Source: Pseudomonadota bacterium
GTDB taxonomy: Bacteria; Pseudomonadota; Gammaproteobacteria; QQUJ01
DNA length: 37,651 bases
Direction of reading: 5' to 3'
Assembly (NCBI GenBank): GCA_008501635.1
Contig: QQUJ01000011.1
Span: forward strand, 1-37,651
The notes under the pieces: generated by a model
The model's input: only the letters and a program-made list of their open reading frames with translations
Told to the model about the DNA's origin: nothing
Database searches by the model: none
Shown: positions 3,453-37,651 of the stretch, piece by piece
Layout: every line of letters begins with the position of its first letter
Position numbering within the stretch: the first letter of the stretch is position 1
Program-made: the position numbers and the translations under genes

Positions 3453-3679
3453 ATGCACTGGAACGCTGGAGGATGGTTCGGAGCGCAGATCGGTGCAACG
3501 GTATGGATGCTCGTGGCGGCCGTACTGACAGCGATTCGCGATCCATCCACGGGCGTGGTTGTGCTCCTGTTGTTCGTCGTTCCAAATGTCATCGGCCTCA
3601 TGCTATGGCTGAGTCGCAAGTTCTCATGCTCATGTTCTACTTCCGCTTTGGTCGAGGTGGCAATGGGCTTGCGGTCTAA
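3453..3679 (+). pseudogene. Decayed small membrane-protein gene (internal deletion and frame change)
   Basis: A good ribosome site (AGGGAGAAG) precedes ATG 3453. Residues 1-52 (MHWNAGGWFGAQIG..., then VVVLLLFVVPNVIGLMLWLSR) look like a real two-segment membrane protein. After about 3610 this frame turns into non-membrane sequence and runs on to 3776 inside the next gene. Another frame over 3599-3679 reads VLMLMFYFRFGRGGNG and stops at TAA 3677-3679, which looks like the C-terminal membrane segment of the same kind of protein. I infer that the middle of the gene was deleted with a shift of frame. From memory, full-length relatives with this start and end are around 120-140 residues; this was not checked. 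The old stop codon sits inside the start of an attC-like site, as in integron gene cassettes. Confidence 0.55.
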
Positions 3680-3742
3680 CATGTTGCTCAAGCCGACTGC
3701 GGCACGCTTAACGCACCGCTGCCGGTTGGCTCTACGTCAGTC
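3674..3742 (+). repeat. Candidate attC-like (integron cassette) recombination site
   Basis: GTCTAAC at 3674-3680 fits the inverse core consensus RYYYAAC exactly. It is followed by CAAGCCGAC, a typical left-arm spacer sequence. An inner arm pair is present: AGCCGACTGCGGCA (3691-3704) against TGCCGGTTGGCT (3720-3731), imperfect. A degenerate core GTCAGTC lies at 3736-3742, where GTTRRRY would be expected. The total of 69 bp is within the size range of attC sites. The TAA stop of the upstream decayed frame lies within the first core. No integrase gene is in the window. Confidence 0.45.
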
Positions 3743-3768
3743 AGCTATGTGGTGCCGTGGCGTCGCCG

Positions 3769-4275
3769 ATGAGTAGTTGGTTCAGTTCAAAGACCGAAAA
3801 GCGCGCGAGCCCGATTCAGGGCCAAGGGCTTTTTGCGTGCGACGCGATCGCAGCGGGGGAGATCGTTGCCGTCAAGGGCGGAGCCATCATGGACGCTGCC
3901 TCGTTGGCGCTGATCCGCGAACTGGTGTCACCCGCTGAGATTCAGATCGAGGAGAGTCTCTACATCGCGCCCCGCAGCGCCGAGGAGGTTCAAGCAAACA
4001 TCCTCTGCCTGAATCACTCCTGCAATCCCAACGTCGGCGTTTGCGGGCAGATCACATTTGTGGCAATGCGCGACATTCCTGCCGGGGCGGAGTTGACCAT
4101 CGACTACGCAATGATCGATGGCGATCCCGCAGAGCGGATGGAGTGTTCGTGCGGGGCACGGGAATGCCGGAAAATCATCACGGGCAGCGACTGGCGCCTC
4201 CAAGAGCTGCAGCGGCGTTACGCGGGCTACTTCTCGCGCTATCTTCAGGATCGTATCCGCATCACTGCCGGGTGA
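3769..4275 (+). CDS. SET-domain protein methyltransferase-like protein
   Basis: This 168-residue protein is one SET domain. Visible motifs are GQGLFA near the start (S-adenosylmethionine side), LNHSCNPN (N82-H83-S84-C85, cofactor binding and pseudoknot), ELTIDYAM (catalytic Tyr region), and a post-SET cysteine group CSCG...C (C126, C128, C133) that usually binds zinc with a Cys from the SET core. Family members transfer methyl groups to protein lysines; bacterial targets are mostly unknown. ATG 3769 is used here; GTG 3757 is an in-frame alternative and neither has a clear Shine-Dalgarno sequence. It begins 26 bp after the attC-like site and could itself have been a cassette gene. Bacterial SET genes are patchy in distribution and often horizontally acquired. 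Confidence 0.85.
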   Translation: MSSWFSSKTEKRASPIQGQGLFACDAIAAGEIVAVKGGAIMDAASLALIRELVSPAEIQIEESLYIAPRSAEEVQANILCLNHSCNPNVGVCGQITFVAMRDIPAGAELTIDYAMIDGDPAERMECSCGARECRKIITGSDWRLQELQRRYAGYFSRYLQDRIRITAG

Positions 4276-4716
4276 TGACACAAGGGATCGATGCGTTGGT
4301 AGTCACAGCAAAGTTTGGCCGTTAGCCGACATGACCATGCCCCCGCATTATCTGGCGATACCGAAATCGGGCACCGGCCCGGGGGTCCTGGTCCTGCACT
4401 CCTGGTGGGGCCTGAATCCGTTCTTCAAAGAGTTGTGCGACCGATTCGCCCGTGCCGGGTTTGTTGCGCTCGCCCCGGATCTCTATTCGGGCAAAGTCGC
4501 AACCACGGTCGCTGCAGCAAAAGCGTTGCGCGCGCAGGCGACGGCCTCGCGGAGAACACCCGCCTACAAGATGCTGATCGCGGCAATCGAGCACCTTTCC
4601 CACCATGCGGCGGTTACCGCGCCGGGCATCGCTCTGGTTGGGTTCTCAATGGGAGGCCACTGGGCGTTGTGGTTGGCTCAGCGACCCGAACTCCCGATTT
4701 GCGCGACCGTTATCTA

Positions 4717-4980
4717 GAACCTATCTCAGAATCCCGCGCGTGCTGTGTTGAGCCCCAGAGGTGCGCTGGGTAGGCCCGAAGGCGCAGCCAATAGCAACGC
4801 TATTGGCAAGTCGAGAACACCGCCAGCGCACCTCTGGGGCCAACCCGAAGGGCCGGGCGCTCGCGGCTCCAGCGCGGTGTTGCGGCTCACTCATTGGGAG
4901 TGACCCAACCACGATCGCCGCGCCTGGCGCTGAAACCGCGAGCGACCGGCACAGCTCGCGGGGGATTCTGAGATAGGTTC
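4717..4980. mobile_element. 264-bp MITE with TA target duplication
   Basis: The ends are inverted repeats of about 31 bp with two mismatches: GAACCTATCTCAGAATCCC at 4717-4735 is exactly mirrored at 4962-4980, and the similarity extends inward to GCTGTG. The element is flanked by TA at 4715-4716 and 4981-4982. Removing the element and one TA restores the host reading frame exactly. It carries no transposase-sized frame, so it is non-autonomous. TA duplication points to IS630/Tc1-mariner-type mobilisation (inference). The inside is strongly structured: arms at 4752-4769 and 4823-4840 are an exact 18-bp inverted pair, enclosing a hairpin CCAATAG/CTATTGG at 4788-4806. Confidence 0.9.
4752..4840. 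repeat. Nested inverted repeats inside the MITE
   Basis: The outer arms GCCCCAGAGGTGCGCTGG (4752-4769) and its exact reverse complement (4823-4840) surround a smaller perfect hairpin with 7-bp stem CCAATAG and loop CAACG (4788-4806). If transcribed, the insert would fold as a long stem. The strength of the structure relative to the element size suggests selection for the fold, or origin from a hairpin-rich end of a larger element. Confidence 0.85.
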
Positions 4981-5241
4981 TACTATGCGGCAAGGAACGG
5001 CGACTTCACGCAAAGCAGGTCAAGGTTGCTCTTTCACTTCGCCCAGACCGACGAATGGGTTTCTGCCGCAAGTATCAAGAAACTCAAAAAGAGCCTGGCG
5101 GGTGCGTCTCTGGATGCGACCTACCACGAGTACCCAGATACGACCCACTGGTTCTTCGAGCGCGATCGATCCGAGGCATTCAACGGGAAGGCCGCAGCGC
5201 TTTCCTGGAAGCGATCCCTGGAGTTTCTGCGTGGCGGCTAG

Positions 5242-36956: not shown

Positions 36957-37428
36957 GGTGCACGCGGGCTGTTCGAAAAGCCCGGTAGGGCTTTCAACGC
37001 ATAGAATTTAATGTCAAAGAACTGGACTCGCGCAAAGGCGTCAAGACGCCAAGAAGCGCAAAGGAATTCCAGAATCGGCGTAGAGTGAGCGAAGCCCACG
37101 CGAGTTAAAACATTGGTCAACTGAAATAGTCGGCCTTGCATCTGTCAATCAGCATCAGATGAACTCAAGTCCTAGATGACCCGGATCGGCCAATTAAAGC
37201 CCTTCACTTCGCAAGACTCGAATAGGAGAAAAGCCGCGGTAGCGGACATTGGACGTTAAGGTATAAATATATCGTCGATAGTAGGAAGAAGACGTTTACA
37301 GTACCAGGTGCCCCTGAAAAGGGCTTTGACCCCTTTACCTGGTCCCCGTGAAACATCTTGATGACCAGCCAATTGGGTTTCCAATTGCCCCATCTTTACA
37401 ACCCCAACCCCGTGATACACATAACTAA
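36957..37428. other. 472-bp non-coding stretch up to the right-hand IS
   Basis: I find no supportable gene. Besides the hairpin after pdxH it holds: a 9-bp direct repeat GCGCAAAGG at 37030-37038 and 37056-37064; a small palindrome GGCGTC-AA-GACGCC at 37037-37050; and a nested hairpin ACCAGGT/ACCTGGT (37303-37309 and 37337-37343) enclosing AAAGGG/CCCTTT (37318-37323 and 37331-37336). Base composition drops compared with the genes on the left, which fits a junk or insertion-prone zone. Confidence 0.55.
36977..36994 (+). terminator. Short hairpin downstream of pdxH
   Basis: AAAGCCC (36977-36983) pairs with GGGCTTT (36988-36994) around the loop GGTA, 21 bp after the pdxH stop. This resembles an intrinsic terminator stem, though the T-run after it is only three bases. 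Confidence 0.5.
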
Positions 37429-37651
37429 GGAACGTCTGAATAAGTGATGCAAACCAGCACGGCCGATTCAATATGTTTGTGTTTTTCATCATAAGGAGCG
37501 TTTGCAGGCAGTATTCGGCTCAACATGGGCCGTTTTCTAGCCGTTTTGTGCGCCGTTGCGGTTTATCAGGCGCACCAATCCTATGTCGGGCATCGCAATC
37601 GTCGCCGCGCCAGGTACAGATTGGTCAATGCACTCAGTACAAACAAGGCAT
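37429..37651 (-). mobile_element. Second IS5-family insertion sequence, left-hand part in window
   Basis: The end GGAACGTCTGAATAAGT begins at 37429 and matches the reverse complement of the end at 387-403 in the left IS, including TCTGA-TAAGT. The preceding four bases CTAA (37425-37428) fit the YTAR target of IS5-group elements. The transposase frame on the minus strand ends 152 bp inside. The rest of the element lies beyond the window. Orientation is the same as that of the left copy. Confidence 0.72.
37581..37651 (-). CDS. IS5-family transposase, C-terminal end (cut by window edge)
   Basis: The minus-strand frame reads ALFVLSALTNLYLARRRL and then stops at TAG (37583-37581). The pattern LFxLSALxNLYxxRxxL is the conserved last helix of IS5-family transposases. 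Only about 23 residues are visible; the DDE core and start are to the right of the window. Confidence 0.75.
   Translation of the reverse strand, partial: ALFVLSALTNLYLARRRLRCPT

Follow-up and report, generated by a model that had tools for sequence, protein, structure and literature searches.

The window, which is the whole stretch of DNA analyzed here (37,651 nucleotides), contains a gene of the dienelactone hydrolase family that is split into two parts by a 264-bp MITE. The features of this locus are as follows.

4331 to 4714, plus strand: front part (5') of the hydrolase gene, codons 1-128, which encodes the nucleophile Ser and matches Pfam DLH on its own (3.2e-22)
4715 to 4716, no strand: left TA copy of the target-site duplication, read from the sequence
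4715 to 4717, plus strand: in-frame TAG stop made of the target TA and the first G of the MITE, codon 129 from ATG 4331
4717 to 4980, plus strand: MITE without a gene of its own, 264 bp, with inverted repeats and other copies in the genome
4717 to 4747, plus strand: left terminal inverted repeat, from an inverted-repeat search
4752 to 4840, no strand: inner hairpin 1, arms 4752-4769 and 4823-4840, 18 nt, 100% complementary
4852 to 4950, no strand: inner hairpin 2, arms 4852-4875 and 4927-4950, 88% complementary
4950 to 4980, minus strand: right terminal inverted repeat, from an inverted-repeat search
4981 to 4982, no strand: right TA copy of the target-site duplication, read from the sequence, with the frame restored on removal
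4983 to 5241, plus strand: remainder (3') of the hydrolase gene, encoding the triad Asp and His and cut off from the translation start

A gene for a SET-domain protein (3757-4275, Pfam SET 8.6e-12) lies immediately upstream of the split hydrolase gene, and a small ORF at 3453-3776 has no Pfam match and an end, NMLLKPTAARLTHR..., that looks repeat-derived. Both extremities of the window are ends of collapsed multicopy elements: positions 1-406 match 16 other contig ends, and their minus strand encodes the first part of an IS5_4-type transposase, to which the plus-strand ORF 9-392 is antisense; positions 37425-37651 match 17 other contig ends. Scanning the window for Rfam families and tRNAs returned nothing.

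The first-pass annotation had described the gene as cleanly interrupted, with removal of the insert restoring a 214-residue frame that contains Ser, Asp and His of the triad, and this description holds. When 4717-4980 and one TA are deleted, a single 214-codon open frame runs from ATG 4331 to TAG 5239-5241. The joined protein matches Pfam DLH over residues 7-212 (131.7 bits, E=3.7e-38), while the N-terminal piece alone scores 79.7 bits and the C-terminal piece alone has no Pfam match. Aligned with 21 homologues, the joined protein has its Ser (in GFSMGG), its Asp (in TDEW) and its His (in TTHWF) in the triad columns, and the insertion junction lies ungapped inside a conserved strand (ATV-IYYA in the window, ATVIYYG in relatives). 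The DLH profile thus places the host gene in the dienelactone hydrolase family, with Ser replacing Cys in the triad; most relatives have GFCMGG or GWCFGG where the window has GFSMGG, and (H/Q)EWWGL where it has HSWWGL. The closest relatives with solved structures are dienelactone hydrolases/carboxymethylenebutenolidases, and the nearest homologues found are less than 40% identical. A second DLH gene in the same genome (G000:C1:8529-9128) is 38% identical and has one TAA within the match; another MITE end lies about 440 bp away from it.

The insert itself was placed to the exact base by the first-pass annotation, with TA at 4715-4716 and 4981-4982, and its 31-nt terminal repeats indeed differ by two mismatches; together with the flanking TA they form two 33-nt arms (4715-4747 and 4950-4982) that are 94% complementary. 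Folded as DNA, the 264 bp give a long stem and two arms within it (z-score -14.1). We also considered a 4-bp duplication, CTAG, of the kind seen in MITEPsy1 and rejected it, as the flanks beyond the TA differ (CTA..TAC in the window) and the frame is restored by removal of TA only.

In the 3.93-Mb genome (30 contigs), 88 stretches match the MITE. There are 15 near-full-length copies of 251-265 bp with at least 93% identity besides dozens of shortened or one-ended copies, so that the idea of an element with no other copies anywhere is excluded. If up to three mismatches are allowed, the 18-bp MITE end is found 102 times in the genome and a reversed control pattern once; together with the 88 matching stretches, this shows that the family is more than a product of chance. 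The element is therefore a MITE in the usual sense, being multicopy, bounded by terminal inverted repeats and free of a transposase gene, with a TA on both sides of 11 of the 15 full-length copies. The fetched stretches contain 31 two-ended elements of 44-265 bp, of which 16 have TA on both sides; the target of these 16 is C-TA-G-like, with C 5' of the TA in 12 and G 3' of it in 8. No conserved frame exists in the MITE, since the copies L011 and L015 have one-base insertions that would shift any frame. The MITE was not found in 35 other genomes of the same class, nor in plasmid or phage collections. In four copies (L017, L030, L023:6852 and L060) inner hairpin 1 is inverted, as if flipped by recombination between its perfect 18-bp arms. 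Stretches L001-L060 also contain 44 one-ended sites, where solo ends often comprise 30-110 bp of the element followed by unrelated DNA, as well as two-ended remnants of 44-87 bp.

When 14 full copies are aligned (pairwise identity 91-99%), the window copy, whose nearest neighbor in the tree is L004, has zero private substitutions (0 to 7 in the other copies). This lack of private substitutions supports a recent insertion into the hydrolase gene, as had been proposed earlier from the intact frame, which alone is no proof. The sole other clear case of a gene interrupted by a full copy is a LysR-type regulator, hit near codon 6 (G000:C28:19110), and most of the remaining full copies appear, with open frames as the sole criterion, to lie between genes or close to a gene end.

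When the species-genome collection was scanned for TAGAACCTATCTCAAAATC, at least 120 stretches were returned, and the matches listed come from Nitrospirota, Verrucomicrobiota (Opitutales), Lysobacteraceae, Rhodanobacteraceae, Muproteobacteria and others. An exact 17-bp copy of the MITE end, with a TA next to it on the outside, is present in Lysobacteraceae, Nitrospira, Gammaproteobacteria, Verrucomicrobia and others. The end GAACCTATCTCAAAATC with a duplicated TA bounds intact IS5 elements (NF033580) of about 833 bp in Lysobacter and other genomes, and among the matches listed at least eight elements of 802-846 bp have the same 17-bp end on both sides. A TA flanks both sides of seven of these eight, the eighth beginning at a contig edge, and four of the eight contain intact frames of about 257 codons. 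The four intact transposases match the IS5 family transposase profile NF033580 with 199-223 bits (E 1.3e-58 to 4.5e-66; cut-off 110 bits), and the transposase of L140 also matches DUF4096 and DDE_Tnp_1. The IS5-family transposase encoded by the complete elements that share these ends identifies, on sequence grounds, the MITE ends as IS5-type and the parent family as IS5, not as the IS630-type element that the first-pass annotation had led one to expect; among the matches listed, no DDE_3-type transposase was found between these ends. The TA duplication of the MITE also fits the IS427 group.

The same end bounds at least 76 short two-ended elements among the matches listed and in the class genomes, 60 of the 76 with TA on both sides, and these short elements form several families with unrelated interiors. 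MITEs that share this terminal sequence and likewise duplicate TA occur in Opitutales OFTM84 (L097, L103, L105, L116 and others) and Nitrospirota (L098, L123, L160), in families of 274 bp and 150-151 bp whose interiors are unrelated. One 17-bp IS5-type end on unrelated MITEs in at least Pseudomonadota, Nitrospirota and Verrucomicrobiota makes cross-mobilization testable. Our literature search found no paper naming GAACCTATCTCAAAATC ends. As the window MITE and the complete IS5 elements share only about 17-20 bp, direct descent by internal deletion would be conjectural. We describe the MITE as a bearer of IS5-type ends rather than as a deletion derivative of a resident IS, since no such IS was found in the genome or at its contig ends. 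An IS5 remnant beside a MITE end (C10:700540) was rejected as parent because its own right end differs; it resembles a collapsed IS5_4-type element.

We propose, with a probability of about 0.92, that a transposase of the IS5 family (DUF4096/DDE) moved the insert in trans, the insert being a non-autonomous MITE with IS5-type ends. Such a transposase would recognize the 17-18-bp ends and paste the MITE at a TA target, and the junction created in this way would supply the TAG at which translation of the hydrolase ends. An autonomous IS5 partner was not detected in the same genome: the L140 transposase has no match (best E=0.377), a search with the PF13586 profile found none, and none of the 60 ends of all 30 contigs, which were inspected because multicopy IS collapse in such assemblies, encodes this IS5 transposase, nearly all ends being repeats. 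The assembly is 98% complete, and the incompleteness of about 2% limits this absence. These results suggest that the partner is probably absent and the MITE probably an orphan, and the family is thus probably stranded here, unless its source escaped detection or is gained and lost through horizontal transfer. An autonomous IS5 partner that is present in the organism and missing from the assembly, with a family that is still active, is unlikely, though the least improbable of the alternatives. A multicopy IS could have collapsed out of a 98% complete assembly in 30 contigs, and the window copy looks very young; however, a multicopy partner would show at the contig ends, where 0 of 60 encode such a transposase, and a single-copy partner would normally have been assembled.

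The TAG at codon 129 leaves a product of 128 residues that keeps the nucleophile and lacks Asp and His, and the 264+2 bp of the insertion shift the frame besides. From the sequence we infer that the split gene is very probably dead. That the insert is tolerated, either because the halves act as a split or fused hydrolase or because an RNA-level process removes it, would agree with two halves that have no further stops, but we regard it as highly improbable, as the TAG stands at the very first base of the MITE together with a 266-bp frameshift, no Rfam intron family is found in the window, and the recency of the insertion accounts for the intact halves. Hardly credible at all is mobilization of the MITE by a transposase of the IS630/Tc1-mariner type, for although a TA duplication and TA-flanked short elements are typical of IS630 and the genome has one partial DDE_3 match (C24:14610-14795), this sole match is a decayed fragment elsewhere in the genome that spans 62 profile positions and contains a stop codon, and the complete elements with these ends are all IS5-type where their frames are readable (eight among the matches listed). 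The disruption of the hydrolase locus is in itself an ordinary, textbook MITE event.

The new and most interesting finding is an IS110-family element that addresses the ends of this MITE. A genome search with both ends of the element gave ten places and no others, five of them with a left end and five with a right end. At five contig ends the sequence reads ...GGGATTTT/AATGGAATGGTCGCCCC... leading to MKITTVGIDVAKTLLQVHGVDERG..., and at five others ...GGGGCGACCATGTA/TGAGATAGGTTCTA, one of them with a single base change. The ends of the IS110 element in MITE repeats are located at

G000:C16:1-176, C28:1-176, C1:99767-99942, C13:85933-86108 and C17:354078-354253
the starts of C26 and C19, and the ends of C22, C16 and C7

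All ten ends visible in the assembly fall on one and the same position within the MITE terminal repeat. This position corresponds to about 4727/4728 in the left and about 4969/4970 in the right repeat of the window copy, both of which are empty. The encoded protein matches NF033542 (IS110 family RNA-guided transposase) over its N-terminal 83 residues with E=1.4e-22, a score that misses the cut-off for the whole protein, the protein being truncated. The repeat ATGGTCGCCCC is present at both ends of the element, and the region downstream of the transposase aligns with relatives. Subterminal repeats and a long downstream non-coding region mark the IS1111 type (PMC11187229), and the element has both in addition to its transposase and fixed target, which places it among IS1111-type IS110 elements.

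Eight plasmid relatives of the element are 63-74% identical in the N-terminal region, with one at 61%. In their downstream region, a first segment resembles the complement of the right flank and a second one the left flank. The summed guide-flank match of the eight is 114 compared with a permuted mean of 86, and none of 300 permutations is as high, a result that is supportive and not independent, as the rule had been spotted by eye on the same eight relatives before the permutation. The match is weak in two of the eight (L305 and L307). When the guide was read from the last 120 bp of the element, the best pairing was not above shuffles (60 of 200), which we attribute to the guide segment being absent from the assembly, as it would lie just upstream of the contig breaks. 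Searches for the missing piece of the element gave nothing or relatives only in viral contigs and plasmids. The predicted guide consists of a segment with CCTATCTCA, a small hairpin and then a segment with GGATTTTG. The relative with 61% N-terminal identity, L308 on the Enterobacter plasmid pPOL9B, lies within GGCTTTGTT/GAATAAATC, a site that presumably resembles an IS903 end, and adjoins an IS5-family transposase gene.

It is likely that the IS1111-type IS110 element is a dedicated parasite of the MITE family: an RNA guide would address the IS5-type repeat, and no landing sites other than MITE copies are visible in the genome. By breaking one end, each insertion probably immobilizes the MITE that receives it.

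Most MITEs have TA at their borders (PMC4133298). MITEPsy1 of Pseudomonas syringae pv. phaseolicola resembles the window MITE in being short and non-coding with ends of the IS5 family (those of ISPsy2), and in interrupting genes and shifting their frame, with a preference for CTAG/YTAA targets (PMC3189936). It differs in its length of 100 bp, its unrelated ends GGAAGGTCTGAAAAAGCC and its 4-nt duplication, and its movement was shown experimentally in the presence of an intact ISPsy2 (PMC3189936), whereas the window MITE duplicates TA only, is 264 bp long and has no partner in the assembly. ISPsp10, an IS5 element of the IS427 group, likewise duplicates TA, and a stop codon can arise at its insertion site, but it has two frames joined by a frameshift (PMC4133298), in contrast to the single frame of about 257 codons in the complete elements described here. 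The Correia elements (CREE) of Neisseria, compared by literature description, are also multicopy bacterial MITEs and differ in ends and host.

For the IS110 element, the closest parallel is IS4321/IS5075, elements that insert in the ends of Tn21-family transposons according to Partridge and Hall (2003), as cited in PMC11187229. They too are IS1111-type elements at a fixed base of the terminal repeat of another transposon, and IS4321/IS5075 copies in Tn21-type ends (L309 and L310) show the same junction geometry as the element described here. They differ in that their targets are Tn21-family ends, while the present element targets the end of an IS5-type MITE, and it thus adds a further case of an IS of the RNA-guided type aimed at the terminus of another transposon.
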